Source: Pontederia crassipes
Taxonomy: Eukaryota; Streptophyta; Magnoliopsida; Commelinales; Pontederiaceae
Length of the DNA stretch: 64,000 nt
Direction: 5' to 3'
Assembly (NCBI GenBank): GCA_030549335.1
Contig: JAUKPH010000023.1
Span: forward strand, 4,111,501 to 4,175,500
Shown: positions 222 to 64,000 of the stretch, piece by piece
Layout of the letters: each line of letters opens with the position of its first letter
Numbering within the stretch: the first letter of the stretch is position 1
Made by a program: the position numbers and the translations under genes
The notes under the pieces: generated by a model
Database searches by the model: none
What the model saw: the letters and a program-made list of their open reading frames with translations, nothing else
Told to the model about the DNA's origin: nothing

Positions 222-231
222 AGGTTCAAAG

Positions 232-15500: not shown

Positions 15501-15640
15501 CAAAGTTGAACCGTTACAATCAATGATAAAGCTCTTGAGGATTAGAGTCTTAGAGTAAGGTTCAAAGCTATAACTTATAAATACCTATTACAACCTTTGG
15601 GTGTCTTAAGAGGTGATAGATCTTTATAACTTTAACTCTA
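12600..15640 (+). repeat. Start of the homogenised middle section
   Basis: From here to about 38 kb the array carries marker variants that are rare elsewhere: AACGGTCTTGG, the pair GATACTTGTTAC and GGTGACAG, CTATTTGAATCC, and GGGGCTTAGAGCC. AACGGTC occurs at 13,013, 13,753 and 14,640, giving local periods of 740 bp (5 monomers) and 887 bp (about 6 monomers). The part from 14,695 begins the 3,255-bp repeat. Confidence 0.8.
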
Positions 15641-38200: not shown

Positions 38201-38509
38201 TGCAAAGCTATAAGTTATAGATACTTATTACAACCTTTGGGTGTCCTAAGAGGTGATAGATCTTTTGAATTTTGACTCTATTTCAAACCGAAGTTGAACC
38301 GTTACAATCAAAGATAACGCTCTTGGGGATTAGAGTCTTAGAGTGAGGTTCAAAGCTATACGTTATAGATACTTATTACAACCTTTGGGTGTCCTAAGAG
38401 GTGATAAATCTTTAGAACTTTAACTCTATTTCAATCCGAAGTTGAACCGTTACAATCAATGATAAAGCTCTTGGGGCTTAGAGTCTTAGAGTAAGGTTCA
38501 AAGCTATAA
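35259..38509 (+). repeat. End of the middle section and transition zone
   Basis: Middle-section markers continue. GAGGCGATAG (cga) occurs at 36,478, 37,514 and 37,958, spaced 7 and 3 monomers apart and 10 monomers from 34,998. GGGGCTTAGAGCC is last seen near 37,590. From about 38 kb the middle-section markers fade, and those of the right section appear from about 38.5 kb. Only satellite is present. Confidence 0.8.
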
Positions 38510-40330: not shown

Positions 40331-42394
40331 GATCTTTAGAACTTTAACTCTATTTCAAACCGAAGTTGAACCGTTACAATCAAAGATAATGCTCTTGGGG
40401 ATTAGAGTCTTAGAGTAAGGTTCAAAGCTATAAGTTATAGATACTTATTACAACCTTTGGGTGTCCTAAGTGGTGATAGATCTTTAGAACTTTAACTCTA
40501 TTTCAATCCGAAGTTGAACCGTTACAATCAAAGATAACGCTCTTGGGGATTAGAGTCCTAGAGTTGGGTTCAAAGCTATAAGTTATAGATACTTATTACA
40601 ACCTTTGGGTGTCCTAAGAGGTGCTAGATCTTTAGAACTTTAACTCTATTTCAATCCAAAGTTGAATCGTTACAATCAATGATAAAGCTCTTGGGGATTA
40701 GAGTCTTAGAGTAAGGTTCAAAGCTATAAGTTATAGATACTTATTACAACCTTTGGGTGTCCTAACAGGTGAAAGATCTTTAGAACTTTAACTCTATTTC
40801 AAATCGAAGTTGAACCGTTACAATCAAAGATAACGCTCTTGGGGATTAGAGTCTTAGAGTTAGGTTCAAAGCTATAAGTTATAGATACTTATTACAACCT
40901 TTGGGTGTCCTAAGAGGTGATAGATCTTTAGAACTTTAACTCTATTTCAAACCGAAGTTGAACCGTTATAATCAAAGATAACGCTCTTGGGGATTAGAGT
41001 CTTAGAGTTGGGTTCAAAGCTATAAGTTATAGATACTTATTACAACCTTTGGGTGCCCTAAGAGGTGATAGATCTTTAGAATTTTAACTCTATTTCAATC
41101 CGAAGTTGAACCGTTATAATCAAAGATAACGCTCTTGGGGATTAGAGTCTTAGAGTTGGGTTCAAAGCTATAAGTTATAGATACTTATTACAACCTTTGG
41201 GTGTCCTAAGAGGAGATAGATCTTTAGAACTTTAACTCTATTTCAAACCGAAGTTGAACCGTTACAATCAAAGATAATGCTCTTGGGGATTAGAGTCTTA
41301 GAGTTGGGTTCAAAGCTATAAGTTATAGATACTTATTACAACCTTTGGGTGTCCTAAGAGGAGATAGATCTTTAGAATTTTAACTCTATTTCAATCCGAA
41401 GTTGAACCGTTACAATCAAAGATAAAGCTCTTGGGGATTAAAGTCTTAGAGTAAGGTTCAAAGCTATAAGTTATAGCTACTTATTACAACCTTTGGGTGT
41501 CCTAAGAGGTGATAGATCTTTAGAACTTTAACTCTATTTCAATCCGAAGTTGAACCGTTACAATCAAAGATAACGCTCTTGGGGATTAGAGTCTTAGACT
41601 TGGGTTCAAAGCTATAAGTTATAGATACTTATTACAACCTTTGGGTGCCCTAAGAGGTGATAGATCTTTAGAATTTTAACTCTATTTCAATTCGAAGTTG
41701 AACCGTTACAATCAAAGATAACGCTCTTGGGGATTAGAGTCTTAGAGTTGGGTTCAAAGCTATAAGTTATAGATACTTATTACAACTTTTGGGTGTCCTA
41801 AGAGGTGATAGATCTTTAGAACTTTAACTCTATTTCAAATCGAAGTTGAACCGTTACAATCAAAGATAACGCTCTTGGGGATTAGAGTCTTAGAGTTGGG
41901 TTCAAAGCTATAAGTTATAGATACTTGTTACAACCTTTGGGTGTCCTAAGAGGTGACAGATCTTTAGAACTTTGACTGTATTTCAAACCGAAGTTGAACC
42001 GTTACAATCAAAGATAATGCTCTTGGGGATTAGAGTCTTAGAGTTAGGTTCAAAGCTATAAGTTATAGATACTTATTACAACCTTTGGGTGTCCTAAGAG
42101 GTGATAGATCTTTAGAACTTTAACTCTATTTCAAACCGAAGTTGAACCGTTACAATCAAAGATAACGCTCTTGGGGATTAGAGTCTTAGAGTAAGGTGCA
42201 AAGCTATAAGTTATAAATACTTATTACAACCTTTGGGTGCCCTAAGAGGTGATAGATCTTTAGAATTTTAACTCTATTTCAATACGAAGTTGAACCGTTA
42301 CAATCAAAGATAACGCTCTTGGGGATTAGAGTCTTAGAGTAAGGTGCAAAGCTATAAGTTATAGATACTTATTACAACCTTTCGGTGCCCTAAG
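40331..42394 (+). repeat. Right-section satellite, reused variants
   Basis: About 14 monomers carrying right-section markers that recur downstream at many places: CTAAGTGGTGATAG (near 40,467, also near 45,793, 49,197, 52,897, 60,294 and 62,514), GAGGAGATAG, GATTAAAGTC, TATAGCTAC and TTATAAATAC (near 42,211). I see nothing but satellite. Confidence 0.82.
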
Positions 42395-44500
42395 AGGTGA
42401 TAGATCTTTAGAACTTTAACTCTATTTCAAACTGAAGTTGAACCGTTACAATCAAAGATAACGCTCTTGGGGATTAGAGTCTTAGAGTTGGGTTCAAAGC
42501 TATAAGTTATAGATACTTATTACAACCTTTGGGTGTCCTAAGAGGTGCTAGATCTTTAAAACTTTAACTCTATTTCAATCCAAAGTTGAACCGTTACAAT
42601 CAATGATAAAGCTCTTGGGGATTAGAGTCTTAGAGTAAGGTTCAAAGCTATAAGTTATAGATACTTATTACAACCTTTGGGCATCCTAAGAGGTGATAGA
42701 TCTTTAGAACTTTAACTCTATTTCAAACTGAAGTTGAACCGTTACAATCAAAGATAACGCTCTTGGGGATTAGAGTCTTAGAGTTGGGTTCAAAGCTATA
42801 AGTTATAGATACTTATTACAACCTTTGGGTGTCCTAAGAGGTGCTAGATCTTTAGAACTTTAACTCTATTTCAATCCAAAGTTGAATCGTTACAATCAAT
42901 GATAAAGCTCTTGGGGATTAGAGTCTTAGAGTAAGGTTCAAAGCTATAAGTTATAGATACTTATTACAACCTTTGGGTGTCCTAAGAGGTGAAAGATCTT
43001 TAGAACTTTAACTCTATTTCAAATCGAAGTTGAACCGTTACAATCAAAGATAACGCTCTTGAGGATTAGAGTCTTAGAGTTAGGTTCAAAGCTATAAGTT
43101 ATAGATACTTATTACAACCTTTGGGTTTCCTAAGAGGTGATAGATCTTTAGAACTTTAACTCTATTTCAAACCGAAGTTGAACCGTTATAATCAAAGATA
43201 ACGCTCTTGGGGATTAGAGTCTTAGAGTTGGGTTCAAAGCTATAAGTTATAGATACTTATTACAACCTTTGGGTGCCCTAAGAGGTGATAGATCTTTAGA
43301 ATTTTAACTCTATTTCAATCCGAAGTTGAACCGTTACAATCAAAGATAACGCTCTTGGGGATTAGAGTCTTAGAGTTGGGTTCAAAGCTATAAGTTATAG
43401 ATACTTATTACAACCTTTGGGTGTCCTAAGAGGAGTAAGATCTTTAGAACTTTAACTCTATTTCAAACCGAAGTTGAACCGTTACAATCAAAGATAATGC
43501 TCTTGGGGATTAGAGTCTTAGAGTTGGGTTCAAAGCTATAAGTTATAGATACTTATTACAACCTTTGGGTGTCCTAAGAGGAGATAGATCTTTAGAATTT
43601 TAACTCTATTTCAATCCGAAGTTGAACCGTTACAATCAAAGATAAAGCTCTTGGGGATTAAAGTCTTAGAGTTAGGTTCAAAGCTATAAGTTATAGATAC
43701 TTATTACAACCTTTGGGTGTCCTAAGAGGTGATAGATCTTTAGAACTTTAACTCTATTTCAAACTGAAGTTGAACCGTTACAATCAAAGATAACGCTCTT
43801 GGGGATTAGAGTCTTAGAGTTGGGTTCAAAGCTATAAGTTATAGATACTTATTACAACCTTTGGGTGTCCTAAGAGGTGCTAGATCTTTAAAACTTTAAC
43901 TCTATTTCAATCCAAAGTTGAACCGTTACAATCAATGATAAAGCTTTTGGGGATTAGAGTCTTAGAGTAAGGTTCAAAGCTATAAGTTATAGATACTTAT
44001 TACAACCTTTGGGCGTCCTAAGAGGTGATAGATCTTTAGAACTTTAACTCTATTTCAAACTGAAGTTGAACCGTTACAATCAAAGATAACGCTCTTGGGG
44101 ATTAGAGTCTTAGAGTTGGTTCAAAGCTATAAGTTATAGATACTTATTACAACATTTGGGTGTCCTAAGAGGTGCTAGATCTTTAAAACTTTAACTCTAT
44201 TTCAATCCAAAGTTGAACCGTTACAATCAATGATAAAGCTCTTGGGGATTAGAGTCTTAGAGTGATGTTCAAAGATATAAGTTATAGATACTTATTAAAA
44301 CCTTTGGGTGTCCTAAGAGGTGCTAGATCTTTAGAACTTTAACTCTATTTCAATCCAAAGTTGAACCGTTACAATCAATGATAAAGTTCTTGGAGATTAG
44401 AGTCTTAGAGTAAGGTTCAAAGCTATAAGTTATAGATACTTATTACAACCTTTGGGTGTCCTAAGATGTGATAGATCTTTAGAACTTTAACTCTATTTCA
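42395..44500 (+). repeat. 2.1-kb block shared with 56.16-58.26 kb
   Basis: Matches a block 13,763 bp downstream (93 monomers minus one base). Markers are CAAACTGAAG (actg at 42,431/56,194), GGGCATCC (gcat at 42,681/56,444), TTGAATCGTTAC, GGTGAAAGATC, TTGAGGATTAG, GATTAAAGTC and GTTCTTGGAGATT. The upstream copy has GGGTTTCC near 43,124 and a one-base deletion in GAGTTGGTTC near 44,117. The downstream copy has a two-base deletion in GATTAGTCTTAG near 57,273. Confidence 0.85.
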
Positions 44501-47500
44501 AACCGAAGTTGAACCGTTACAATCAAAGATAACGCTCTTGGGGATTAGAGTCTTAGAGTTGGGTTCAAAGTTATAAGTTATAGATACTTATTACAACCTT
44601 TGGGTGTCCTAAGAGGTGCTAGATCTTTAGAACTTTAACTCTATTTCAATCCAAAGTTGAACCATTACAATCATTGATAAAGCTCATGGGGATTAGAGTC
44701 TTAGAGTAAGGTTCAAAGCTATAAGTTATAGCTACTTATTACAACCTTTGGGTGTCCTAAGAGGTGATAGATCTTTAGAACTTTAACTCTATTTCAATCC
44801 GAAGTTGAACCGTTACAATCAAAGATAACGCTCTTGGGGATTAGAGTCTTAGACTTGGGTTCAAAGCTATAAGTTATAGATACTTATTACAACCTTTGGG
44901 TGCCCTAAGAGGTGATAGATCTTTAGAATTTTAACTCTATTTCAATTCGAAGTTGAACCGTTACAATCAAAGATAATGCTCTTGGGGATTAGAGTCTTAG
45001 AGTTGGGTTCAAAGCTATAAGTTATAGATACTTATTACAACTTTTGGGTGTCCTAAGAGGTGATAGATCTTTAGAACTTTAACTCTATTTCAAATCGAAG
45101 TTGAACCGTTACAATCAAAGATAACGCTCTTGGGGATTAGAGTCTTAGATTTGGGTTCAAAGCTATAAGTTATAGATACTTGTTACAACCTTTGGGTGTC
45201 CTAAGAGGTGATAGATCTTTAGAACTTTAACTCTATTTCAAACCGAAGTTGAACCGTTACAATCAAAGATAACGCTCTTGGGGATTAGAGTCTTAGAGTA
45301 AGGTGCAAAGCTATAAGTTATAAATACTTATTACAACCTTTGGGTGCCCTAAGAGGTGATAGATCTTTAGAATTTTAACTCTATTTCAATACGAAGTTGA
45401 ACCGTTACAATCAAAGATAACGCTCTTGGGGATTAGAGTCTTAGAGTAAGGTGCAAAGCTATAAGTTATAGATACTTATTACAACCTTTCGGTGCCCTAA
45501 GAGGTGATAGATCTTTAGAACTTTAACTCTATTTCAAATCGAAGTTGAACCGTTACAATCAAAGATAACGCTCTTGGGGATTAGAGTCTTAGAGTTGGGT
45601 TCAAAGCTATAAGTTATAGATACTTGTTACGACCTTTGGGTGTCCTAAGAGGTGACAGATCTTTAGAACTTTGACTCTATTTCAAACCGAAGTTGAACCG
45701 TTACAATCAAAGATAATGCTCTTGGGGATTAGAGTCTTAGAGTAAGGTTCAAAGCTATAAGTTATAGATACTTATTACAACCTTTGGGTGTCCTAAGTGG
45801 TGATAGATCTTTAGAACTTTAACTCTATTTCAATCCGAAGTTGAACCGTTACAATCAAAGATAACGCTCTTGGGGATTAGAGTCTTAGAGTTGGGTTCAA
45901 AGCTATAAGTTATAGATACTTATTACAACCTTTGGGTGCCCTAAGAGGTGATAGATCTTTAGAATTTTAACTCTATTTCAATCCGAAGTTGAACCGTTAT
46001 AATCAAAGATAACGCTCTTGGGGATTAGAGTCTTAGAGTTGGGTTCAAAGCTATAAGATATAGATACTTATTACAACCTTTGGGTGTCCTAAGAGGAGAT
46101 AGATCTTTAGAACTTTAACTCTATTTCAAACCGAAGTTGAACCGTTACAATCAAAGATAATGCTCTTGGGGATTAGAGTCTTAGAGTTGGGTTCAAAGCT
46201 ATAAGTTATAGATACTTATTACAACCTTTGGGTGTCCTAAGAGGAGATAGATCTTTAGAATTTTAACTCTATTTCAATCCGAAGTTGAACCGTTACAATC
46301 AAAGATAAAGCTCTTGGGGATTAAAGTCTTAGAGTAAGGTTCAAAGCTATAAGTTATAGCTAGTTATTACAACCTTTGGGTGTCCTAAGAGGTGATAGAT
46401 CTTTAGAACTTTAACTCTATTTCAATCCGAAGTTGAACCGTTACAATCAAAGATAACGCTCTTGGGGATTAGAGTCTTAGACTTGGGTTCAAAGCTATAA
46501 GTTATAGATACTTATTACAACCTTTGGTTGCCCTAAGGGGTGATAGATCTTTAGAATTTTAACTCTATTTCAATTCGAAGTTGAACCGTTACAATCAAAG
46601 ATAACGCTCTTGGGGATTAGAGTCTTAGAGGTGGGTTCAAAGCTATAAGTTATAGATACTTATTACAACTTTTGGGTGTCCTAAGAGGTGATAGATCTTT
46701 AGAACTTTAACTCTATTTCAAATCGAAGTTGAACCGTTACAATCAAAGATAACGCTCTTGGGGATTAGAGTCTTAGAGTTGGGTTCAAAGCTATAAGTTA
46801 TAGATACTTGTTACAACCTTTGGGTGTCCTAAGAGGTGACAGATCTTTAGAACTTTGACTCTATTTCAAACCGAAGTTGAACCGTTACAATCAAAGATAA
46901 TGCTCTTGGGGATTAGAGTCTTAGAGTTAGGTTCAAAGCTATAAGTTATAGATACTTATTACAACCTTTGGGTGTCCTAAGAGGTGATAGATCTTTAGAA
47001 CTTTAACTCTATTTCAAACCGAAGTTGAACCGTTACAATCAAAGATAACGCTCTTGGGGATTAGAGTCTTAGAGTTGGGTTCAAAGCTATAAGTTATAGA
47101 TACTTATTACAACCTTTGGGTGTCCTAAGAGGAGATAGATCTTTAGAACTTTAACTCTATTTCAAACCGAAGTTGAACCGTTACAATCAAAGATAATGCT
47201 CTTGGGGATTAGAGTCTTAGAGTTGGGTTCAAAGCTATAAGTTATAGATACTTATTACAACCTTTGGGTGTCCTAAGAGGAGATAGATCTTTAGAATTTT
47301 AACTCTATTTCAATCCGAAGTTGAACCGTTACAATCAAAGATAACGCTCTTGGGGATTAGAGTCTTAGAGTTGGGTTCAAAGCTATAAGTTATAGATACT
47401 TATTACAACCTTTGGGCGTCCTAAGAGGTGATAGATCTTTAGAACTTTAACTCTATTTCAAACTGAAGTTGAACCGTTACAATCAAAGATAACGCTCTTG

Positions 47501-48100
47501 GGGATTAGAGTCTTAGAGTTGGGTTCAAAGCTATAAGTTATAGATACTTATTACAACCTTTGGGTGTCCTAAGAGGTGCTAGATCTTTAAAACTTTAACT
47601 CTATTTCAATCCAAAGTTGAACCGTTACAATCAATGATAAAGCTCTTGGAGATTAGAGTCTTAGAGTGATGTTCAAAGATATAAGTTATAGATACTTATT
47701 AAAACCTTTGGGTGTCCTAAGAGGTGCTAGATCTTTAGAACTTTAACTCTATTTCAATCCAAAGTTGAACCGTTACAATCAATGATAAAGTTCTTGGAGA
47801 TTAGAGTCTTAGAGTAAGGTTCAAAGCTATAAGTTATAGATACTTATTACAACCTTTGGGTGTCCTAAGAGGTGATAGATCTTTAGAACTTTAACTCTAT
47901 TTCAAACCGAAGTTGAACCGTTACAATCAAAGATAACGCTCTTGGGGATTAGAGTCTTAGAGTTGGGTTCAAAGTTATAAGTTATAGATACTTATTACAA
48001 CCTTTGGGTGTCCTAAGAGGTGCTAGATCTTTAGAACTTTAACTCTATTTCAATCCAAAGTTGAACCATTACAATCAATGATAAAGCTCTTGGGGATTAG
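44010..48100 (+). repeat. About 3,403-bp (23-monomer) repeat
   Basis: GGGCGTCC (gcgtcc at 44,013 and 47,416), GAGTGATGTTC, GTTCTTGGAGATT, CCATTACAATC, TTATAAATAC (near 45,320 and 48,723), TTCGGTGCC and TTACGACC recur at a shift of 3,403-3,404. The match runs through 44.0-45.9 kb against 47.4-49.4 kb. It overlaps the left edge of the 3,700-bp duplication. Differences include CAATCATTGAT and GCTCATGG near 44,670-44,690. Confidence 0.78.
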
Positions 48101-51100
48101 AGTCTTAGAGTAAGGTTCAAAGCAATAAGTTATAGCTACTTATTACAACCTTTGGGTGTCCTAAGAGGTGATAGATCTTTAGAACTTTAACTCTATTTCA
48201 ATCCGAAGTTGAACCGTTACAATCAAAGATAACGCTCTTGGGGATTAGAGTCTTAGAGTTGGGTTCAAAGCTATAAGTTATAGATACTTATTACAACCTT
48301 TGGGTGCCCTAAGAGGTGATAGATCTTTAGAATTTTAACTCTATTTCAATTCGAAGTTGAACCGTTACAATCAAAGATAATGCTCTTGGGGATTAGAGTC
48401 TTAGAGTTGGGTTCAAAGCTATAAGTTATAGACACTTATTACAACTTTTGGGTGTCCTAAGAGGTGATAGATCTTTAGAACTTTAACTCTATTTCAAATC
48501 GAAGTTGAACCGTTACAATCAAAGATAACGCTCTTGGGGATTAGAGTCTTAGAGTTGGGTTCAAAGCTATAAGTTATAGATACTTGTTACAACCTTTGGG
48601 TGTCCTAAGAGGTGATAGATCTTTAGAACTTTAACTCTATTTCAAACCGAAGTTGAACCGTTACAATCAAAGATAACGCTCTTGGGGATTAGAGTCTTAG
48701 AGTAAGGTGCAAAGCTATAAGTTATAAATACTTATTACAACCTTTGGGTGCCCTAAGAGGTGATAGATCTTTAGAATTTTAACTCTATTTCAATACGAAG
48801 TTGAACCGTTACAATCAAAGATAACGCTCTTGGGGATTAGAGTCTTAGAGTAAGGTGCAAAGCTATAAGTTATAGATACTTATTACAACCTTTCGGTGCC
48901 CTAAGAGGTGATAGATCTTTAGAACTTTAACTCTATTTCAAATCGAAGTTGAACCGTTACAATCAAAGATAACGCTCTTGGGGATTAGAGTCTTAGAGTT
49001 GGGTTCAAAGCTATAAGTTATAGATACTTGTTACGACCTTTGGGTGTCCTAAGAGGTGAATGATCTTTAGAACTTTGACTCTATTTCAAACCGAAGTTGA
49101 ACCGTTACAATCAAAGATAATGCTCTTGGGGATTAGAGTCTTAGAGTAAGGTTCAAAGCTATAAGTTATAGATACTTATTACAACCTTTGGGTGTCCTAA
49201 GTGGTGATAGATCTTTAGAACTTTAACTCTATTTCAATCCGAAGTTGAACCGTTACAATCAAAGATAACGCTCTTGGGGATTAGAGTCTTAGAGTTGGGT
49301 TCAAAGCTATAAGTTATAGATACTTATTACAACCTTTGGGTGTCCTAAGAGGTGCTAGATCTTTAGAACTTTAACTCTATTTCAATCCAAAGTTGAATCG
49401 TTACAATCAATGATAAAGCTCTTGGGGATTAGAGTCTTAGAGTAAGGTTCAAAGCTATAAGTTATAGATACTTATTACAACCTTTGGGTGTCCTAACAGG
49501 TGAAAGATCTTTAGAACTTTAACTCTATTTCAAATCGAAGTTGAACCGTTACAATCTAAGATAACGCTCTTGGGGATTAGAGTCTTAGAGTTAGGTTCAA
49601 AGCTATAAGTTATAGATACTTATTACAACCTTTGGGTGTCCTAAGAGGTGATAGATCTTTAGAACTTTAACTCTATTTCAAACCGAAGTTGAACCGTTAT
49701 AATCCAAGATAACGCTCTTGGGGATTAGAGTCTTAGAGTTGGGTTCAAAGCTATAAGTTATAGATACTTATTACAACCTTTGGGTGCCCTAAGAGGTGAT
49801 AGATCTTTAGAATTTTAACTCTATTTCAATCCGAAGTTGAACCGTTATAATCAAAGATAACGCTCTTGGGGATTAGAGTCTTAGAGTTGGGTTCAAAGCT
49901 ATAAGTTATAGATACTTATTACAACCTTTGGGTGTCCTAAGAGGAGATAGATCTTTAGAACTTTAACTCTATTTCAAACCGAAGTTGAACCATTACAATC
50001 AAAGATAATGCTCTTGGGGATTAGAGTCTTAGAGTTGGGTTCAAAGCTATAAGTTATAGATACTTATTACAACATTTGGGTGTCCTAAGAGGAGATAGAT
50101 CTTTAGAATTTTAACTCTATTTCAATCCGAAGTTGAACCGTTACAATCAAAGATAAAGCTCTTGGGGATTAAAGTCTTAGAGTAAGGTTCAAAGCTATAA
50201 GTTATAGCTACTTATTACAAGCTTTGGGTGTCCTAAGAGGTGATAGATCTTTAGAACTTTAACTCTATTTCAATCCGAAGTTGAACCGTTACAATCAAAG
50301 ATAACGCTCTTGGGGATTAGAGTCTTAGACTTGGGTTCAAAGCTATAAGTTATAGATACTTATTACAACCTTTGGGTGCCCTAAGAGGTGATAGATCTTT
50401 AGAATTTTAACTCTATTTCAATTCGAAGTTGAACCGTTACAATCAAAGATAACGCTCTTGGGGATTAGAGTCTTAGAGTTGGGTTCAAAGCTATAAGTTA
50501 TAGATACTTATTACAACTTTTGGGTGTCCTAAGAGGTGATAGATCTTTAGAACTTTAACTCTATTTCAAATCGAAGTTGAACCGTTACAATCAAAGATAA
50601 CGCTCTTGGGGATTAGAGTCTTAGAGTTGGGTTCAAAGCTATAAGTTATAGATACTTGTTACAACCTTTGGGTGTCCTAAGAGGTGACAGATCTTTAGAA
50701 CTTTGACTCTATTTCAAATCGAAGTTGAACCGTTACAATCAAAGATAATGCTCTTGAGGATTAGAGTCTTAGAGTTAGGTTCAAAGCTATAAGTTATAGA
50801 TACTTATTACAACCTTTGGGTGTCCTAAGAGGTGATAGATCTTTAGAACTTTAACTCTATTTCAAACCGAAGTTGAACCGTTATAATCAAAGATAACGCT
50901 CTTGGGGATTAGAGTCTTAGAGTTGGGTTCAAAGCTATAAGTTATAGATACTTATTACAACCTTTGGGTGCCCTAAGAGGTGATAGATCTTTAGAATTTT
51001 AACTCTATTTCAATCCGAAGTTGAACCGTTACAATCGAAGATAACGCTCTTGGGGATTAGAGTCTTAGAGTTGGGTTCAAAGCTATAAGTTATAGATACT

Positions 51101-54100
51101 TATTACAACCTTTGGGTGTCCTAAGAGGAGATAGATCTTTAGAACTTTAACTCTATTTCAAACCGAAGTTGAACCGTTACAATCAAAGATAATGCTCTTG
51201 GGGATTAGAGTCTTAGAGTTGGGTTCAAAGCTATAAGTTATAGATACTTATTACAACCTTTGGGTGTCCTAAGAGGAGATAGATCTTTAGAACTTTAACT
51301 CTATTTCAAACCGAAGTTGAACCATTACAATCAAAGATAATGCTCTTGGGGATTAGAGTCTTAGAGTTGGGTTCAAAGCTATAAGTTATAGATACTTATT
51401 ACAACCTTTGGGTGTCCTAAGAGGAGATAGATCTTTAGAATTTTAACTCTATTTCAATCCGAAGTTGAACCGTTACAATCAAAGATAAAGCTCTTGGGGA
51501 TTAAAGTCTTAGAGTAAGGTTCAAAGCTATAAGTTATAGCTACTTATTACAAGCTTTGGGTGTCCTAAGAGGTGATAGATCTTTAGAACTTTAACTCTAT
51601 TTCAATCCGAAGTTGAACCGTTACAATCAAAGATAACGCTCTTGGGGATTAGAGTCTTAGACTTGGGTTCAAAGCTATAAGTTATAGATACTTATTACAA
51701 CCTTTGGGTGCCCTAAGAGGTGATAGATCTTTAGAACTTTAACTCTATTTCAATCCAAAGTTGAACCATTACAATCAATGATAAAGCTCTTGGGGATTAG
51801 AGTCTTAGAGTAAGGTTCAAAGCAATAAGTTATAGCTACTTATTACAACCTTTGGGTGTCCTAAGAGGTGATAGATCTTTAGAACTTTAACTCTATTTCA
51901 ATCCGAAGTTGAACCGTTACAATCAAAGATAACGCTCTTGGGGATTAGAGTCTTAGAGTTGGGTTCAAAGCTATAAGTTATAGATACTTATTACAACCTT
52001 TGGGTGCCCTAAGAGGTGATAGATCTTTAGAATTTTAACTCTATTTCAATTCGAAGTTGAACCGTTACAATCAAAGATAATGCTCTTGGGGATTAGAGTC
52101 TTAGAGTTGGGTTCAAAGCTATAAGTTATAGACACTTATTACAACTTTTGGGTGTCCTAAGAGGTGATAGATCTTTAGAACTTTAACTCTATTTCAAATC
52201 GAAGTTGAACCGTTACAATCAAAGATAACGCTCTTGGGGATTAGAGTCTTAGAGTTGGGTTCAAAGCTATAAGTTATAGATACTTGTTACAACCTTTGGG
52301 TGTCCTAAGAGGTGATAGATCTTTAGAACTTTAACTCTATTTCAAACCGAAGTTGAACCGTTACAATCAAAGATAACGCTCTTGGGGATTAGAGTCTTAG
52401 AGTAAGGTGCAAAGCTATAAGTTATAAATACTTATTACAACCTTTGGGTGCCCTAAGAGGTGATAGATCTTTAGAATTTTAACTCTATTTCAATACGAAG
52501 TTGAACCGTTACAATCAAAGATAACGCTCTTGGGGATTAGAGTCTTAGAGTAAGGTGCAAAGCTATAAGTTATAGATACTTATTACAACCTTTCGGTGCC
52601 CTAAGAGGTGATAGATCTTTAGAACTTTAACTCTATTTCAAATCGAAGTTGAACCGTTACAATCAAAGATAACGCTCTTGGGGATTAGAGTCTTAGAGTT
52701 GGGTTCAAAGCTATAAGTTATAGATACTTGTTACGACCTTTGGGTGTCCTAAGAGGTGAATGATCTTTAGAACTTTGACTCTATTTCAAACCGAAGTTGA
52801 ACCGTTACAATCAAAGATAATGCTCTTGGGGATTAGAGTCTTAGAGTAAGGTTCAAAGCTATAAGTTATAGATACTTATTACAACCTTTGGGTGTCCTAA
52901 GTGGTGATAGATCTTTAGAACTTTAACTCTATTTCAATCCGAAGTTGAACCGTTACAATCAAAGATAACGCTCTTGGGGATTAGAGTCTTAGAGTTGGGT
53001 TCAAAGCTATAAGTTATAGATACTTATTACAACCTTTGGGTGTCCTAAGAGGTGCTAGATCTTTAGAACTTTAACTCTATTTCAATCCAAAGTTGAATCG
53101 TTACAATCAATGATAAAGCTCTTGGGGATTAGAGTCTTAGAGTAAGGTTCAAAGCTATAAGTTATAGATACTTATTACAACCTTTGGGTGTCCTAACAGG
53201 TGAAAGATCTTTAGAACTTTAACTCTATTTCAAATCGAAGTTGAACCGTTACAATCTAAGATAACGCTCTTGGGGATTAGAGTCTTAGAGTTAGGTTCAA
53301 AGCTATAAGTTATAGATACTTATTACAACCTTTGGGTGTCCTAAGAGGTGATAGATCTTTAGAACTTTAACTCTATTTCAAACCGAAGTTGAACCGTTAT
53401 AATCCAAGATAACGCTCTTGGGGATTAGAGTCTTAGAGTTGGGTTCAAAGCTATAAGTTATAGATACTTATTACAACCTTTGGGTGCCCTAAGAGGTGAT
53501 AGATCTTTAGAATTTTAACTCTATTTCAATCCGAAGTTGAACCGTTATAATCAAAGATAACGCTCTTGGGGATTAGAGTCTTAGAGTTGGGTTCAAAGCT
53601 ATAAGTTATAGATACTTATTACAACCTTTGGGTGTCCTAAGAGGAGATAGATCTTTAGAACTTTAACTCTATTTCAAACCGAAGTTGAACCATTACAATC
53701 AAAGATAATGCTCTTGGGGATTAGAGTCTTAGAGTTGGGTTCAAAGCTATAAGTTATAGATACTTATTACAACATTTGGGTGTCCTAAGAGGAGATAGAT
53801 CTTTAGAATTTTAACTCTATTTCAATCCGAAGTTGAACCGTTACAATCAAAGATAAAGCTCTTGGGGATTAAAGTCTTAGAGTAAGGTTCAAAGCTATAA
53901 GTTATAGCTACTTATTACAAGCTTTGGGTGTCCTAAGAGGTGATAGATCTTTAGAACTTTAACTCTATTTCAATCCGAAGTTGAACCGTTACAATCAAAG
54001 ATAACGCTCTTGGGGATTAGAGTCTTAGACTTGGGTTCAAAGCTATAAGTTATAGATACTTATTACAACCTTTGGGTGCCCTAAGAGGTGATAGATCTTT

Positions 54101-55435
54101 AGAATTTTAACTCTATTTCAATTCGAAGTTGAACCGTTACAATCAAAGATAACGCTCTTGGGGATTAGAGTCTTAGAGTTGGGTTCAAAGCTATAAGTTA
54201 TAGATACTTATTACAACTTTTGGGTGTCCTAAGAGGTGATAGATCTTTAGAACTTTAACTCTATTTCAAATCGAAGTTGAACCGTTACAATCAAAGATAA
54301 CGCTCTTGGGGATTAGAGTCTTAGAGTTGGGTTCAAAGCTATAAGTTATAGATACTTGTTACAACCTTTGGGTGTCCTAAGAGGTGACAGATCTTTAGAA
54401 CTTTGACTCTATTTCAAATCGAAGTTGAACCGTTACAATCAAAGATAATGCTCTTGAGGATTAGAGTCTTAGAGTTAGGTTCAAAGCTATAAGTTATAGA
54501 TACTTATTACAACCTTTGGGTGTCCTAAGAGGTGATAGATCTTTAGAACTTTAACTCTATTTCAAACCGAAGTTGAACCGTTATAATCAAAGATAACGCT
54601 CTTGGGGATTAGAGTCTTAGAGTTGGGTTCAAAGCTATAAGTTATAGATACTTATTACAACCTTTGGGTGCCCTAAGAGGTGATAGATCTTTAGAATTTT
54701 AACTCTATTTCAATCCGAAGTTGAACCGTTACAATCGAAGATAACGCTCTTGGGGATTAGAGTCTTAGAGTTGGGTTCAAAGCTATAAGTTATAGATACT
54801 TATTACAACCTTTGGGTGTCCTAAGAGGAGATAGATCTTTAGAACTTTAACTCTATTTCAAACCGAAGTTGAACCGTTACAATCAAAGATAATGCTCTTG
54901 GGGATTAGAGTCTTAGAGTTGGGTTCAAAGCTATAAGTTATAGATACTTATTACAACCTTTGGGTGTCCTAAGAGGAGATAGATCTTTAGAACTTTAACT
55001 CTATTTCAAACCGAAGTTGAACCATTACAATCAAAGATAATGCTCTTGGGGATTAGAGTCTTAGAGTTGGGTTCAAAGCTATAAGTTATAGATACTTATT
55101 ACAACCTTTGGGTGTCCTAAGAGGAGATAGATCTTTAGAATTTTAACTCTATTTCAATCCGAAGTTGAACCGTTACAATCAAAGATAAAGCTCTTGGGGA
55201 TTAAAGTCTTAGAGTAAGGTTCAAAGCTATAAGTTATAGCTACTTATTACAAGCTTTGGGTGTCCTAAGAGGTGATAGATCTTTAGAACTTTAACTCTAT
55301 TTCAATCCGAAGTTGAACCGTTACAATCAAAGATAACGCTCTTGGGGATTAGAGTCTTAGACTTGGGTTCAAAGCTATAAGTTATAGATACTTATTACAA
55401 CCTTTGGGTGCCCTAAGAGGTGATAGATCTTTAGA
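48024..55435 (+). repeat. 3,700-bp (25-monomer) tandem duplication, apparently identical copies
   Basis: Copy 1 is about 48,024-51,723 and copy 2 about 51,724-55,423, with the match persisting to 55,435. The left limit is the difference TGCTAG (48,021) versus TGATAG (51,721). Rare markers keep the spacing exactly: AGCAATAAG (48,121/51,821), GGTGAATGATC, CAATCTAAG, AATCCAAG, AACATTTGGG, and AAGCTTTGGG, which creates a HindIII site (50,219/53,919 and 51,551/55,251). I noticed no difference between the copies, so this is the youngest large duplication in the window, or an assembly feature. Confidence 0.9.
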
Positions 55436-56194
55436 ATTTTAACTCTATTTCAATTCGAAGTTGAACCGTTACAATCAAAGATAACGCTCTTGGGGATTAG
55501 AGTCTTAGAGTTGGGTTCAAAGCTATAAGTTATAGATACTTATTACAACTTTTGGGTGTCCTAAGAGGTGATAGATCTTTAGAACTTTAACTCTATTTCA
55601 AATCGAAGTTGAACCGTTACAATCAAAGATAACGCTCTTGGGGATTAGAGTCTTAGAGTTGGGTTCAAAGCTATAAGTTATAGATACTTGTTACAACCTT
55701 TGGGTGTCCTAAGAGGTGACAGATCTTTAGAACTTTGACTCTATTTCAAATCGAAGTTGAACCGTTACAATCAAAGATAATGCTCTTGAGGATTAGAGTC
55801 TTAGAGTTAGGTTCAAAGCTATAAGTTATAGATACTTATTACAACCTTTGGGTGTCCTAAGAGGTGATAGATCTTTAGAACTTTAACTCTATTTCAAACC
55901 GAAGTTGAACCGTTATAATCAAAGATAACGCTCTTGGGGATTAGAGTCTTAGAGTTGGGTTCAAAGCTATAAGTTATAGATACTTATTACAACCTTTGGG
56001 TGCCCTAAGAGGTGATAGATCTTTAGAATTTTAACTCTATTTCAATCCGAAGTTGAACCGTTACAATCGAAGATAACGCTCTTGGGGATTAGAGTCTTAG
56101 AGTTGGGTTCAAAGCTATAAGTTATAGATACTTATTACAACCTTTGGGTGTCCTAAGAGGAGATAGATCTTTAGAACTTTAACTCTATTTCAAA
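53640..56194 (+). repeat. 1,332-bp (9-monomer) tandem repeat, about 1.9 copies
   Basis: Bases from about 53,640 match those 1,332 bp downstream until 56,194, where AACCG meets AACTG. The HindIII-bearing variant AAGCTTTGGG at 53,919 and 55,251 marks the two units. The older parallel pair sits at 50,219 and 51,551 inside the first 3,700-bp copy. There the second unit is cut short near 51,733 by the 3,700-bp joint. One difference seen is AACATTTGGG versus AACCTTTGGG near 53,770/55,102. The order of events is therefore 9-monomer duplication first, 25-monomer duplication second. Confidence 0.85.
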
Positions 56195-58260
56195 CTGAAG
56201 TTGAACCGTTACAATCAAAGATAACGCTCTTGGGGATTAGAGTCTTAGAGTTGGGTTCAAAGCTATAAGTTATAGATACTTATTACAACCTTTGGGTGTC
56301 CTAAGAGGTGCTAGATCTTTAAAACTTTAACTCTATTTCAATCCAAAGTTGAACCGTTACAATCAATGATAAAGCTCTTGGGGATTAGAGTCTTAGAGTA
56401 AGGTTCAAAGCTATAAGTTATAGATACTTATTACAACCTTTGGGCATCCTAAGAGGTGATAGATCTTTAGAACTTTAACTCTATTTCAAACTGAAGTTGA
56501 ACCGTTACAATCAAAGATAACGCTCTTGGGGATTAGAGTCTTAGAGTTGGGTTCAAAGCTATAAGTTATAGATACTTATTACAACCTTTGGGTGTCCTAA
56601 GAGGTGCTAGATCTTTAGAACTTTAACTCTATTTCAATCCAAAGTTGAATCGTTACAATCAATGATAAAGCTCTTGGGGATTAGAGTCTTAGAGTAAGGT
56701 TCAAAGCTATAAGTTATAGATACTTATTACAACCTTTGGGTGTCCTAAGAGGTGAAAGATCTTTAGAACTTTAACTCTATTTCAAATCGAAGTTGAACAG
56801 TTACAATCAAAGATAACGCTCTTGAGGATTAGAGTCTTAGAGTTAGGTTCAAAGCTATAAGTTATAGATACTTATTACAACCTTTGGGTGTCCTAAGAGG
56901 TGATAGATCTTTAGAACTTTAACTCTATTTCAAACCGAAGTTGAACCGTTATAATCAAAGATAACGCTCTTGGGGATTAGAGTCTTAGAGTTGGGTTCAA
57001 AGCTATAAGTTATAGATACTTATTACAACCTTTGGGTGCCCTAAGAGGTGATAGATCTTTAGAATTTTAACTCTATTTCAATCCGAAGTTGAACCGTTAC
57101 AATCAAAGATAACGCTCTTGGGGATTAGAGTCTTAGTGTTGGGTTCAAAGCTATAAGTTATAGATACTTATTACAACCTTTGGGTGTCCTAAGAGGAGAT
57201 AGATCTTTAGAACTTTAACTCTATTTCAAACCGAAGTTGAACCGTTACAATCAAAGATAATGCTCTTGGGGATTAGTCTTAGAGTTGGGTTCAAAGCTAT
57301 AAGTTATAGATACTTATTACAACCTTTGGGTGTCCTAAGAGGAGATAGATCTTTAGAATTTTAACTCTATTTCAATCCGAAGTTGAACCGTTACAATCAA
57401 AGATAAAGCTCTTGGGGATTAAAGTCTTAGAGTTAGGTTCAAAGCTATAAGTTATAGATACTTATTACAACCTTTGGGTGTCCTAAGAGGTGATAGATCT
57501 TTAGAACTTTAACTCTATTTCAAACTGAAGTTGAACCGTTACAATCAAAGATAACGCTCTTGGGGATTAGAGTCTTAGAGTTGGGTTCAAAGCTATAAGT
57601 TATAGATACTTATTACAACCTTTGGGTGTCCTAAGAGGTGCTAGATCTTTAAAACTTTAACTCTATTTCAATGCAAAGTTGAACCGTTACAATCAATGAT
57701 AAAGCTCTTGGGGATTAGAGTCTTAGAGTAAGGTTCAAAGCTATAAGTTATAGATACTTATTACAACCTTTGGGCGTCCTAAGAGGTGATAGATCTTTAG
57801 AACTTTAACTCTATTTCAAACTGAAGTTGAACCGTTACAATCAAAGATAACGCTCTTGGGGATTAGAGTCTTAGAGTTGGGTTCAAAGCTATAAGTTATA
57901 GATACTTATTACAACCTTTGGGTGTCCTAAGAGGTGCTAGATCTTTAAAACTTTAACTCTATTTCAATCCAAAGTTGAACCGTTACAATCAATGATAAAG
58001 CTCTTGGGGATTAGAGTCTTAGAGTGATGTTCAAAGATATAAGTTATAGATACTTATTAAAACCTTTGGGTGTCCTAAGAGGTGCTAGATCTTTAGAACT
58101 TTAACTCTATTTCAATCCAAAGTTGAACCGTTACAATCAATGATAAAGTTCTTGGAGATTAGAGTCTTAGAGTAAGGTTCAAAGCTTTAAGTTATAGATA
58201 CTTATTACAACCTTTGGGTGTCCTAAGAGGTGATAGATCTTTAGAACTTTAACTCTATTT
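56160..58260 (+). repeat. Downstream copy of the 2.1-kb block at 42.4 kb
   Basis: This is the partner of 42,395-44,500 at a shift of 13,763 to 13,764, with the same ordered variants (GGGCATCC, TTGAATCG, GGTGAAAG, GGGCGTCC, GAGTGATG, GTTCTTGGAG). It overlaps the start of the block shared with 38.5 kb, so this part of the array combines pieces of two upstream neighbourhoods. Private changes include TTGAACAGTTAC near 56,797, AATGCAAAG near 57,672 and GCTTTAAG near 58,186. Confidence 0.84.
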
Positions 58261-59978
58261 CAATCCGAAGTTGAACCGTTACAATCAATGATAAAGCTCT
58301 TGGGGATTAGAGTCATAGGGTAAGGTTCAAAGCTATAAGTTATAGATACTTATTACAACTTTTGGGTGTCCTAAGAGGTGATTGATCTTTAGAACTTTAA
58401 CTCTATTTCAATCCGAAGTTGAACCGTTACAATCAAAGATAACGCTCTTGGGGATTAGAGTCTTAGAGTTGGGTTCAAAGCTATAAGTTATATCTACTTA
58501 TTACAACCTTTGGGTGTCCTAAGAGGTGATAGATCTTTATAACTTTAACTCTATTTCAAACCGAAGTTGAACCGTTACAATCAAAGATAACGCTCTTGGG
58601 GATTAGAGTCTTAGACTTGGGTTCAAAGCTATAAGTTATAGATACTTATTACAACCTTTGGGTGCCCTAAGAGGTGATAGATCTTTAGAATTTTAACTCT
58701 ATTTCAATTCGAAGTTGAACCGTTACAATCAAAGATAACGCTCTTGGGGATTAGAGTCTTAGAGTTGGGTTCAAAGCTATAAGTTATAAATACTTATTAC
58801 AACCTTTGGGTGTCCTAAGAGGTGATAGATCTTTAGAACTTTAACTCTATTTCAAACCGAAGTTGAACCGTTACAATCAAAGATAACGCTCTTGGGGATT
58901 AGAGTCTTAGAGTTGGGTTCAAAGTTATAAGTTATAGATACTTATTACAACCTTTGGGTGTCCTAAGAGGTGCTAGATCTTTAGAACTTTAACTCTATTT
59001 CAATCCAAAGTTGAACCATTACAATCAATGATAAAGCTCTTGGGGATTAGAGTCTTAGAGTAAGGTTCAAAGCTATAAGTTATAGCTACTTATTACAACC
59101 TTTGGGTGTCCTAAGAGGTGATAGATCTTTAGAACTTTAACTCTATTTCAATCCGAAGTTGAACCGTTACAATCAAAGATAACGCTCTTGGGGATTAGAG
59201 TCTTAGACTTGGGTTCAAAGCTATAAGTTATAGATACTTATTACAACCTTTGGGTGCCCTAAGAGGTGATAGATCTTTAGAATTTTAACTCTATTTCAAT
59301 TCGAAGTTGAACCGTTACAATCAAAGATAACGCTCTTGGGGATTAGAGTCTTAGAGTTGGGTTCAAAGCTATAAGTTATAGATACTTATTACAACTTTTG
59401 GGTGTCCTAAGAGGTGATAGATCTTTAGAACTTTAACTCTATTTCAAATCGAAGTTGAACCGTTACAATCAAAGATAACGCTCTTGGGGATTAGAGTCTT
59501 AGAGTTGGGTTCAAACCTATAAGTTATAGATACTTGTTACAACCTTTGGGTGTCCTAAGAGGTGACAGATCTTTAGAACTTTGACTCTATTTCAAACCGA
59601 AGTTGAACCGTTACAATCAAAGATAATGCTCTTGGGGATTAGAGTCTAAGAGTTAGGTTCAAGCTATAAGTTATAGATACTTATTACAACATTTGGGTGT
59701 CCTAAGAGTTGATAGATCTTTAGAACTTTAACTCTATTTCAAACCGAAGTTGAACCGTTACAATCAAAGATAACGCTCTTGGGGATTAGAGTCTTAGAGT
59801 AAGGTGCAAAGCTATAAGTTATAAATACTTATTACAACCTTTGGGTGCCCTAAGAGGTGATAGATCTTTAGAATTTTAACTCTATTTCAATACGAAGTTG
59901 AACCGTTACAATCAAAGATAACGCTCTTGGGGATTAGAGTCTTAGAGTAAGGTGCAAAGCTATAAGTTATAGATACTT

Positions 59979-60002
59979 GTTACAACCTTTGGGTGTCCTA
60001 AG
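59979..60002 (+). other. Conversion-like patch between duplicate copies
   Basis: Within the 2,220-bp duplication the copies differ at five sites in 24 bases (59,979, 59,985, 59,991, 59,996 and 60,002), while the flanks are nearly identical. Related blocks near 45.47, 48.88 and 52.58 kb show the other form, CTTTCGGTGCCC. At three of the sites copy 1 carries the common form (CTTGTTAC and CTTTGGGTGTCC). The other two are private changes in copy 2. This is inferred to be a short exchange from another monomer. Confidence 0.6.
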
Positions 60003-62830
60003 AGGTGATAGATCTTTAGAACTTTAACTCTATTTCAAATCGAAGTTGAACCGTTACAATCAAAGATAACGCTCTTGGGGATTAGAGTCTTAGAGTTGGG
60101 TTCAAAGCTATAAGTTATAGATACTTGTTACGACCTTTGGGTGTCCTAAGAGGTGACAGATCTTTAGAACTTTGACTCTATTTCAAACCGAAGTTGAACC
60201 GTTACAATCAAAGATAATGCTCTTGGGGATTAGAGTCTTAGAGTAAGGTTCAAAGCTATAAGTTATAGATACTTATTACAACCTTTGGGTGTCCTAAGTG
60301 GTGATAGATCTTTAGAACTTTAACTCTATTTCAATCCGAAGTTGAACCGTTACAATCAAAGATAACGCTCTTGGGGATTAGAGTCTTAGAGTTGGGTTCA
60401 AAGCTATAAGTTATAGATACTTATTTCAACCTTTGGGTGTCCTAAGAGGTGCTAGATCTTTAGAACTTTAACTCTATTTCAATCCAAAGTTGAATCGTTA
60501 CAATCAATGATAAAGCTCTTGGGGATTAGAGTCTTAGAGTAAGGTTCAAAGCTATAAGTTATAGATACTTATTACAACCTTTGGGTGTCCTAAGAGGTGA
60601 AAGATCTTTGGAACTTTAACTCTATTTCAAATCGAAGTTGAACCGTTACAATCAAAGATAACGCTCTTGGGGATTAGAGCCTTAGAGTTAGGTTCAAAGT
60701 TATAAGTTATAGATACTTATTACAACCTTTGGGTGTCCTAAGAGGTGATAGATCTTTAGAACTTTAACTCTATTTCAAACCGAAGTTGAACCGTTACAAT
60801 CAAAGATAACGCTCTTGGGGATTAGAGTCTTAGACTTGGGTTCAAAGCTATAAGTTATAGATACTTATTACAACCTTTGGGTGCCCTAAGAGGTGATAGA
60901 TCTTTAGAATTTTAACTCTATTTCAATTCGAAGTTGAACCGTTACAATCAAAGATAACGCTCTTGGGGATTAGAGTCTTAGAGTTGGGTTCAAAGCTATA
61001 AGTTATAGATACTTATTACAACCTTTGAGTGTCCTAAGAGGTGATAGATCTTTAGAACTTTAACTCTATTTCAAACCGAAGTTGAACCGTTACAATCAAA
61101 GATAACGCTCTTGGGGATTAGAGTCTTAGAGTTGGGTTCAAAGTTATAAGTTATAGATACTTATTACAACCTTTGGGTGTCCTAAGAGGTGCTAGATCTT
61201 TAGAACTTTAACTCTATTTCAATCCAAAGTTGAACCATTACAATCAATGATAAAGCTCTTGGGGATTAGAGTCTTAGAGTAAGGTTCAAAGCTATAAGTT
61301 ATAGCTACTTATTACAACCTTTGGGTGTCCTAAGAGGTGATAGATCTTTAGAACTTTAACTCTATTTCAATCCGAAGTTGAACCGTTACAATCAAAGATA
61401 ACGCTCTTGGGGATTAGAGTCTTAGACTTGGGTTCAAAGCTATAAGTTATAGATACTTATTACAACCTTTGGGTGCCCTAAGAGGTGATAGATCTTTAGA
61501 ATTTTAACTCTATTTCAATTCGAAGTTGAACCGTTACAATCAAAGATAACGCTCTTGGGGATTAGAGTCTTAGAGTTGGGTTCAAAGCTATAAGTTATAG
61601 ATACTTATTACAACTTTTGGGTGCCCTAAGAGGTGATAGATCTTTAGAACTTTAACTCTATTTCAAATCGAAGTTGAACCGTTACAATCAAAGATAACGC
61701 TCTTGGGGATTAGAGTCTTAGAGTTGGGTTCAAAGCTATAAGTTATAGATACTTGTTACAACCTTTGGGTGTCCTAAGAGGTGACAGATCTTTAGAACTT
61801 TGACTCTATTTCAAACCGAAGTTGAACCGTTACAATCAAAGATAATGCTCTTGGGGATTAGAGTCTTAGAGTTAGGTTCAAAGCTATAAGTTATAGATAC
61901 TTATTACAACATTTGGGTGTCCTAAGAGTTGATAGATCTTTAGAACTTTAACTCTATTTCAAACCGAAGTTGAACCGTTACAATCAAAGATAACGCTCTT
62001 GGGGATTAGAGTCTTAGAGTAAGGTGCAAAGCTATAAGTTATAAATACTTATTACAACCTTTGGGTGCCCTAAGAGGTGATAGATCTTTAGAATTTTAAC
62101 TCTATTTCAATACGAAGTTGAACCGTTACAATCAAAGATAACGCTCTTGGGGATTAGAGTCTTAGAGTAAGGTGCAAAGCTATAAGTTATAGATACTTAT
62201 TACAGCCTTTCGGTGCCCTAAAAGGTGATAGATCTTTAGAACTTTAACTCTATTTCAAATCGAAGTTGAACCGTTACAATCAAAGATAACGCTCTTGGGG
62301 ATTAGAGTCTTAGAGTTGGGTTCAAAGCTATAAGTTATAGATACTTGTTACGACCTTTGGGTGTCCTAAGAGGTGACAGATCTTTAGAACTTTGACTCTA
62401 TTTCAAACCGAAGTTGAACCGTTACAATCAAAGATAATGCTCTTGGGGATTAGAGTCTTAGAGTAAGGTTCAAAGCTATAAGATATAGATACTTATTACA
62501 ACCTTTGGGTGTCCTAAGTGGTGATAGATCTTTAGAACTTTAACTCTATTTCAATCCGAAGTTGAACCGTTACAATCAAAGATAACGCTCTTGGGGATTA
62601 GAGTCTTAGAGTTGGGTTCAAAGCTATAAGTTATAGATACTTATTACAACCTTTGGGTGTCCTAAGAGGTGCTAGATCTTTAGAACTTTAACTCTATTTC
62701 AATCCAAAGTTGAATCGTTACAATCAATGATAAAGCTCTTGGGGATTAGAGTCTTAGAGTAAGGTTCAAAGCTATAAGTTATAGATACTTATTACAACCT
62801 TTGGGTGTCCTAAGAGGTGAAAGATCTTTG

Positions 62831-63064
62831 GAACTTTAACTCTATTTCAAATCGAAGTTGAACCGTTACAATCAAAGATAACGCTCTTGGGGATTAGAGT
62901 CTTAGAGTTAGAGTTCTAAAGATCTATCACCTCTTAGGACACCCAAAGGTTGTAATAAGTATCTATAACTTATAGCTTTGAACCTAACTCTAAGACTCTA
63001 ATCCCCAAGAGCGTTATCTTTGATTGTAACGGTTCAACTTCGATTTGAAATAGAGTTAAAGTTC
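62831..63064. repeat. 81-bp perfect inverted repeat with 72-nt spacer
   Basis: Bases 62,831-62,911 are the exact reverse complement of 62,984-63,064, with 62,912-62,983 between them. The first mismatch outward is at 62,830, where GATCTTTGG faces GATCTTTAG. Beyond it the pairing continues imperfectly, because both arms consist of the same satellite. The first inverted monomer is the same subtype (AAATCGAAG, GATAACG, GAGTTAGG) as the interrupted forward monomer. Single strands could fold here into a long hairpin or cruciform. Confidence 0.9.
62903..62911. other. Orientation switch point of the satellite array
   Basis: The forward array reads to about monomer position 75 and then switches to the opposite strand at about monomer position 8. 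The nine bases TAGAGTTAG fit both sides. On the forward side they are the second TTAGAGT repeat of a GAGTTAGG-type monomer. On the inverted side they are the complement of a monomer start preceded by the variant GAACTC, a variant also seen in the inverted arm at 63,200. The exact breakpoint therefore cannot be placed within these nine bases. No unrelated sequence lies at the joint. Confidence 0.93.
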
Positions 63065-63437
63065 TAAAGATCTATCACCTCTTAGGACACCCAAAGGTTG
63101 TAATAAGTATCTATAACTTATAGCTTTGAACCTAACTCTAAGACTCTAATCCCCAAGAGCGTTATCTTTGATTGTAACGGTTCAACTTCGGTTTGCAATA
63201 GAGTTAGAGTTCTAAAGATCTATCACCTCTTAGGGCACCCAAAGGTTGTAATAAGTATCTATAACTTATAGCTTTTAACATTACTCTAAGACTCTAATCC
63301 CCAAGTGCGTTATCTTTGATTGTAACGGTTCAACTTCGGTTTGAAGTAGAGTTAAAGTTCTAAAGATCTATCACCTCTAAGGGCACCCAAAGGTTGTAAT
63401 AAGTATCTATAACTTATAACTTTGAACCTTACTCTAA

Positions 63438-63457
63438 CAATCTATTCCGCAATATCG
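63438..63457 (-). other. Diverged patch in an inverted monomer
   Basis: Six substitutions fall within about 20 bases, giving AACAATCTATTCCGC and AATATCG where neighbouring inverted monomers read AAGACTCTAATCCCC and AAGAGCG. Both flanks are normal. No such cluster was seen in the forward array. Confidence 0.75.
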
Positions 63458-63791
63458 TTATCTTTGATTGTAACGGTTCAACTTCGGTTTGAAATAGAGT
63501 TAAAGTTCTAAAGATCTATCACCTCTTAGGGCACCCAAAGGTTGTAATAAGTATCTATAACTTATAGCTTTGAACCTAACTCTAAGACTCTAATCACCAA
63601 GAGCGTTATCTTTGATTGTAACGGTTCAACTTCGGTTTGAAATAGAGTTAAAGTTCCAAACATCTATCACCTCTTAGGACATCCAAAGGTTGTAATAAGG
63701 ATCTATAACTTATAGCTTTGAACCTTACTCTAAGACTCTAATCCCCAAGAGCGTTATCTTTGAATGTAACGGTTCAACTTCGGTTTGAAAT

Positions 63792-63931
63792 AGAGTTAAA
63801 GTACTATCACCTCTTAGGACACCCAAAGGTTGTAATAAGTATCTATAACTTATAGCTTTGAACCTTACTCTAAGACTCTAATCCCCAAGAGCGTTATCTT
63901 TGCTTGTAACGGTTCAACTTCGGTTTGAAAT
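63792..63931 (-). repeat. Inverted monomer with an 8-bp deletion
   Basis: This monomer is 140 bp long. After AGAGTTAAAGT it continues with ACTATCACC, dropping eight bases that include the BglII site present in most monomers. The following partial monomer also has changes at the same place (TTCAAAAGATC). Confidence 0.85.
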
Positions 63932-64000
63932 AGAGTTAAGTTCAAAAGATCTATCACCTCTTAGGACACCAACAGGTTGTAATAAGTATCTATAACTTAT

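Follow-up and report, generated by a model that had tools for sequence, protein, structure and literature searches.

The change of strand in a 148-bp satellite array of Pontederia crassipes is probably a joint at a short microhomology between two arrays that had been homogenised separately, accompanied by an independent exchange between LTR retroelements at the far end of the inverted block. The forward array (A) would have been cut in the middle of a higher-order repeat (HOR) unit and joined to an opposed block (B), each having been homogenised beforehand.

Orientation switch and inverted repeat

The window, that is the whole stretch of 64,000 nucleotides that was analysed, corresponds to C23:4111501-4175500 (C23 being contig JAUKPH010000023.1) in a genome of 1.13 Gb in 43 contigs, and 200 kb were read around it on C23. 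Its 148-bp tandem array lies on the forward strand to about 62911-62921 and on the opposite strand from 62903 to the window end. The orientation switch that had been proposed from the letters alone is thus real and correctly placed, with head-to-tail monomers up to 62911 and inverted ones from 62912. With no inverted pair of at least 25 bp in 1-62800 (12-bp seed, 5-kb limit), no switch other than this joint was found in the window. The features discussed below are as follows.

1..62911, forward strand: array A, 148-bp satellite with HOR blocks (wrap-around alignment, 426 pieces of which 402 are exactly 148 bp)
60616..62835, forward strand: final full 15-monomer HOR unit (2,220 bp) of A before the joint, taking the preceding S-type monomer as its start
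62831..62911, forward strand: left arm of an 81-bp perfect inverted repeat (inverted-repeat comparison)
62836..62911, forward strand: interrupted A monomer of type S, columns 1-76, in the expected HOR slot
62837..62844, forward strand: dyad arm TAACTCTA, monomer columns 2-9
62903..62911, no strand assigned: joint with the 9-bp microhomology TAGAGTTAG, columns 68-76 of A and columns 9-1 of an inverted B monomer (T1C variant)
62912..64000, reverse strand: start of block B, which has its own HOR and runs on to C23:4200997
62912..63059, reverse strand: first full inverted monomer, with C17T as its only change and identical copies at four other places in B and one in window A
62984..63064, reverse strand: right arm of the 81-bp inverted repeat

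The perfect inverted repeat of 81 bp announced by the earlier note was found at the joint, between the two arms listed above. This match is weaker than it appears, because two monomers that do not mirror each other share a perfect inverted match of 86 bp (62735-62820 and 63807-63892); length alone is unremarkable in a satellite. Of the 423,382 in-phase points, 1,644 (0.39%, a count that includes the joint) have an exact run of at least 81 bp, and columns 1-76 of the interrupted monomer are found again in only one of the 415 other forward monomers. As single-stranded DNA the joint is predicted to form one long hairpin (-111 kcal/mol vs -21 for shuffles), as must be expected of any head-to-head repeat joint.

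Two arrays with their own higher-order repeats

Monomer types in A were defined from 11 variable columns. For the final 14 full forward monomers the best repeat lag is 15 monomers (12 differences summed over them), the next best being 134 (40 differences). A truncated S monomer could not have given rise to the complete S copies found elsewhere, from which we infer that A already had its HOR organisation when the joint interrupted it in mid-unit. Along the window, the HOR regime of A shifts from ABGAONCDHEARPEL... around 15-37 kb to JIEaUXEYCQSFCMT... around 40-62 kb. The first 11 kb are less homogenised, with a mean nearest difference of about 2 vs less than 1 further on, and a short 98-bp monomer lacking about 50 bp forms a local two-copy 98-bp repeat at 3958-4151.

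The inverted arm was followed past the window and proved to be a block of 26.6 kb (C23:4174412-4200997) with its own HOR, a result that speaks against the fold-back reading favoured by the earlier note and in favour of the caution which that note attached to it. On C23, A is forward up to the joint, B is inverted, a 5.2-kb non-satellite element follows, and forward satellite (C) resumes and extends to at least 4275500. Sampling of C23 in 1-kb points gave no satellite at nine of nine between 3.50 and 4.00 Mb, and forward satellite nearest to C at all 11 between 4.29 Mb and the end of the contig. The distinctness of B is apparent at both scales of comparison: the mean nearest-monomer difference from B (n=180) is 0.62 within B, 4.92 with window A (n=424) and 5.22 with C (n=468), and B cut into 888-bp tiles (n=18) has a median match of 99.6% in B itself as compared with 95.1% in A to the left, 94.8% in window A and 95.4% in C. 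The HOR of B was not found in the sequence of A or C that was read. B is homogenised to the same degree as A, which rules out the inverted arm being an unhomogenised old edge, a view that had been formed from seven monomers.

The sequence at the joint belongs to B on its inverted side. Including the joint copy, B contains eight C17T monomers, and in six of the seven other sites the next three monomer types are the same as at the joint (T1C T12G, then T10C T50A T74A G76T C80A T121C, then C49A C51A G55C...), some of these copies carrying additional private changes. A longer order (G56T or G56A T121C, then A36T..., then a monomer with an 8-bp deletion) is shared by three of the seven sites, at 4176327, 4179277 and 4193286. 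On the joint side, the neighbour of C17T is the T1C T12G monomer, again in six of the seven; the exception is the most distal site, 4197856, which departs from the order of B on both sides. The first nine bases of the T1C T12G monomer are those at the joint, and the nine nucleotides on the joint side are also B's. The B monomer type with the 8-bp deletion (140 bp) occurs at C23:4175300-4175439 (63800-63939 in the window) and in other copies; this length, seen in 10 of 181 B pieces, is a handy marker of the B HOR.

Microhomology on the longest dyad of the monomer

A microhomology of 9 bp had also been reported for the joint and is indeed present as TAGAGTTAG at 62903-62911, a homology common to both parents and beyond chance. 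At this place the five B copies printed show AATAGAGTTAGAGTTC and the single A copy printed shows CTTAGAGTTAGGTTC, as compared with CTTAGAGTTAGAGTTC at the joint itself. In the consensus monomer, TAACTCTA at columns 2-9 faces TAGAGTTA at columns 68-75, and this 8-bp dyad is the longest in the monomer; the T1C variant on the B side extends the overlap from these 8 bp to 9. The dyad as such is unremarkable, since 53 of 300 shuffles contained one of at least 8 bp. Among the 21,904 phase pairs that the consensus allows, only 18 (0.08%) offer microhomology of at least 8 bp, and the position of the joint exactly on the longest dyad is not chance. The same stem (2-9/68-75) closes the fold predicted for the interrupted monomer as a single strand, a fold that is not strong (z -1.75, with 13 of 200 shuffles equally good).

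A genome search with the joint pattern, one mismatch being allowed, returned six matches. Only the window's own is a switch, the five others lying within single-orientation stretches of 3,023 bp. The dyad is not shown by this search to be a recurrent site of joining, which it may nevertheless be. The exact joint motif is unique in the genome, and the head-to-head form of the pattern has 69 matches, none of them exact.

A retroelement at the far end of B and its counterpart on another contig

The right edge of B coincides with a retroelement, which has a counterpart on contig C20.

C23:4200998-4206229, at the right edge of B: LTR retroelement of 5.2 kb, beginning with TGATA and ending with TATCA
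C20:473921-479246, after forward B-type satellite ending at 473920: reciprocal element of the same family, in the opposite direction

The LTRs of the C23 element are about 690 bp long and 97.4% alike (10 mismatches, 8 gap columns), and its flanks, CAAAG and GATCT, form no target-site duplication. Recombinant LTR elements are known to lack matching target-site duplications. The left LTR has at least 41 matches, made of 18 pairs ca. 4.5 kb apart, itself and four singles; scores within a pair never differ by more than 5 bits, and the element's own right LTR is absent among the matches listed. For the right LTR, the matches listed comprise pairs and a number of singles, and the best other one among them is C20:478559-479246. 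The left and right LTRs of the C23 element thus differ in their nearest relatives among the matches listed. On its minus strand the element contains an ORF of 821 aa which gave no Pfam family at E 0.1 and which may be a plant Ty3-type gag-protease.

Flanks and LTRs of the two elements match crosswise. Past the C20 element the satellite is on the minus strand, as it is at the 500- and 600-kb points of that contig, which are nearest to C. The outer flank of the C20 element (1,284 bp) is of C type (98.4% to C, 95.6% to A, 94.9% to B) and its inner flank of B type (97.5% to B, 94.8% to C, 94.0% to A). When reverse-complemented, the outer flank ends with GGTGATAGATCT, and the right flank of the C23 element begins with GATCTTTAGAACT, so that a 5-bp duplication, GATCT, is split over the two contigs, in phase, at columns 136-140. 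Reconstruction of the empty site with a single GATCT gives one register, with 12 differences from the consensus in 583 bases. The LTRs that face this site are alike at 687 of 688 positions across the contigs, vs 97.4% and 97.6% within the elements. Finally, positions 1603-3558 of the two elements form an identical tract of 1,956 bp, flanked by 40 differences on its left side and 65 on its right, as would be expected after a crossover with a conversion tract. Reverse transcription, too, can give rise to mosaic elements.

These data probably reflect a reciprocal ectopic crossover between two LTR retroelements of the same family, one (Z) in B-type and the other (Y) in C-type satellite. Its products would be B-/element/C+, which forms the right edge of B on C23, and B+/element/C- (as the contig reads) on C20. 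LTRs and flanking satellite families are exchanged crosswise as such an event predicts. Neither hybrid element has a target-site duplication of its own, and a duplication split between the products was found for Y only. Element Z fits less neatly: no partner was found for CAAAG, its LTRs are only 98.0% alike and its internal sequence has 74 bp in excess, which means that a further deletion must be assumed.

Two further observations concern the C20 element. It starts 74 bp ahead of its LTR, as if a pair of elements sharing an LTR had existed, one of which was later truncated. The satellite beside this internal sequence breaks off at C20:473920 at column 76 (GAGTAAG), which is also the column of the window joint, possibly by chance.

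An assembly artefact, in which the joint or the pair of hybrid elements would have been produced by the assembler, is unlikely. The identical tract of 1,956 bp is a place where connections could be swapped; however, chance would not produce so long an identity between elements that differ by ca. 2% elsewhere, and an exchange or conversion is needed regardless. In addition, assemblers do not normally join on 9 bp, and elements of about 5.3 kb each are below the usual length of long reads.

Origin of the first inverted monomer

The earlier note had also proposed a fold-back switch in which the interrupted monomer itself was copied. On this reading, the monomer would have been copied back over about 140-160 nt before a second switch led into B. 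This explanation was initially favoured for the rarity of the first-monomer identity and was dropped after all of B had been read; it is now very improbable. It draws on the 81-bp identity of the first inverted monomer with the interrupted one, on the rarity of that match (one of 415 other forward monomers; 44 of 73,632 A x B pairs identical over columns 1-76) and on the closure of the single strand on the dyad. Against it, the first inverted monomer is a regular constituent of the B HOR, and the nine nucleotides before it and the monomers after it are B's in B's order. With B sequence on both sides, the first inverted stretch very probably does not derive from the interrupted monomer, and a fold-back copy is neither needed nor supported. 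A snap-back within the same monomer would further call for a copy of the forward monomer at 62688, with its eight diagnostic changes, and none was seen.

Further out, the inverted arm does not mirror the forward arm, only the first monomer matching. The earlier note had said as much of the inverted neighbours and had cautioned against a long fold-back copy; both statements hold, the mirror register ranking 68th of 420 and the forward neighbour having no mirror copy. Its other suggestion, plain inversion of an existing segment, stands in so far as the inverted arm is pre-existing sequence and falls in so far as this sequence is not flipped A or C sequence as read. A simple local inversion of 26.6 kb from the adjacent array, with the LTR element inserted afterwards at the right breakpoint, would account for forward satellite on either side of B, but it has the slimmest chance of all since the HOR of B is absent from the A and C sequence read and since a later insertion would have brought its own target-site duplication, whereas the flanks are CAAAG and GATCT and the partner of GATCT is on C20.

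Under the preferred explanation, a microhomology joint of two existing arrays, one feature calls for comment. The joint sets face to face two monomers that look alike, a pairing for which plain end joining offers no explanation. For this A monomer, the chance of such a partner in B is 5 in 177. The pairing may be luck, which is possible because the feature was chosen for having been noticed, or it may reflect a homology-guided step.

Proposed course of events

In opposed arrays of this satellite, the longest dyad of the monomer (columns 2-9 vs 68-75) would supply the 9-bp overlap and offer it once per monomer, so that no fold-back copying is needed. The joint itself could have been made by end joining or by a microhomology template switch. 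The exchange between elements would be a separate event, and B would measure only 26.6 kb because that exchange removed its continuation. Were the exchange undone on paper, the B parts would adjoin each other, as would the C parts, all in a single orientation, the window joint then being the only switch seen on that side.

The consequences for the chromosome would depend on the position of C20. If C20 and C23 belong to one chromosome, the core of the array would have been inverted, over at least 0.41 Mb of C23 and 0.47 Mb of C20, and B would be left as a stub in the old orientation; if they belong to different chromosomes, an exchange of arms would have taken place instead. The end of C23 and the start of C20 carry like C-type satellite in like orientation, as do C29 and C6. 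We tentatively consider, as a possibility that falls short of an even chance, that a core of ca. 0.9 Mb or more was flipped through recombination of two retroelements inserted in the array, the two reciprocal breakpoints and the split duplication remaining legible, and that the adjacent switch was set at the dyad between look-alike monomers, the satellite sequence directing the fusion.

Regarding the distribution of these types, hits of 900 bp of B on other contigs had suggested that the B family is spread over the genome. This was rejected: one of the eight loci read has B-type variants (C20, about 471.5-474 kb), three are of C type (C20 at 5-8 kb, C8 and C29) and four of other types (C18, C1, C9 and C24). 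A young C-type HOR family (T86A; A98G T138A T142C; T106G A110T) is common to C23, C20, C29, C6 and C8 at 97-99%. At C9:48341001-48344000, 38-bp partial monomers recur at regular intervals between full monomers, an arrangement like that of a composite HOR unit.

Comparison with known systems

Adjoining inverted arrays of CentC have been described in maize CEN10, in an account that also cites inverted arrays in rice CEN8 (PMC4806543). The present locus resembles these in its opposed adjoining arrays and its HORs, and inversions and microhomology repair are invoked there for centromeres as well; maize CEN10 differs in its satellite, and the part of that account considered here describes neither a split target-site duplication nor a reciprocal pair of elements. 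In human alpha satellite, an inversion is found in the live array of centromere 1, more common ones lying in the divergent flanks (PMC9549924). The strand switch inside a satellite and the layers of differing HOR families are shared features; the present locus differs in that the joint is resolved at single-base level, with a homogenised HOR array on either side. Recombination between inverted repeats and microhomology end joining have both been linked to centromeres, as far as the relevant part of PMC10813616 indicates. In plants, ectopic recombination of dispersed repeats can give inversions or reciprocal translocations (PMC5664140, in the portion relied upon), and the crossover of two same-family copies with reciprocal products is of this kind, except that the copies lie here inside satellite and that one target-site duplication is split over two contigs. 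The satellite Palv148 of white poplar has a 148-bp unit and an HOR organisation, a likeness drawn from its description in an excerpt of PMC12046899 and no more than a lead from unit length. A limited look at open-licence literature on satellite strand switches, inversions and element recombination yielded no case of a duplication split across a satellite array, which is not proof that none exists.

Overall, the event is ordinary in kind and unusually legible. Changes of direction in satellites are mostly inferred from long-range maps. In this array, the HOR types serve as addresses of the monomers, by which it is possible to distinguish the joining of two existing arrays from fold-back copying. 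Fold-back should not be read from a satellite palindrome until the inverted arm has been traced further out. Through the nearby retroelement, one target-site duplication can still be read, each half on a different contig, and a vague strand switch is resolved into two events with testable breakpoints.
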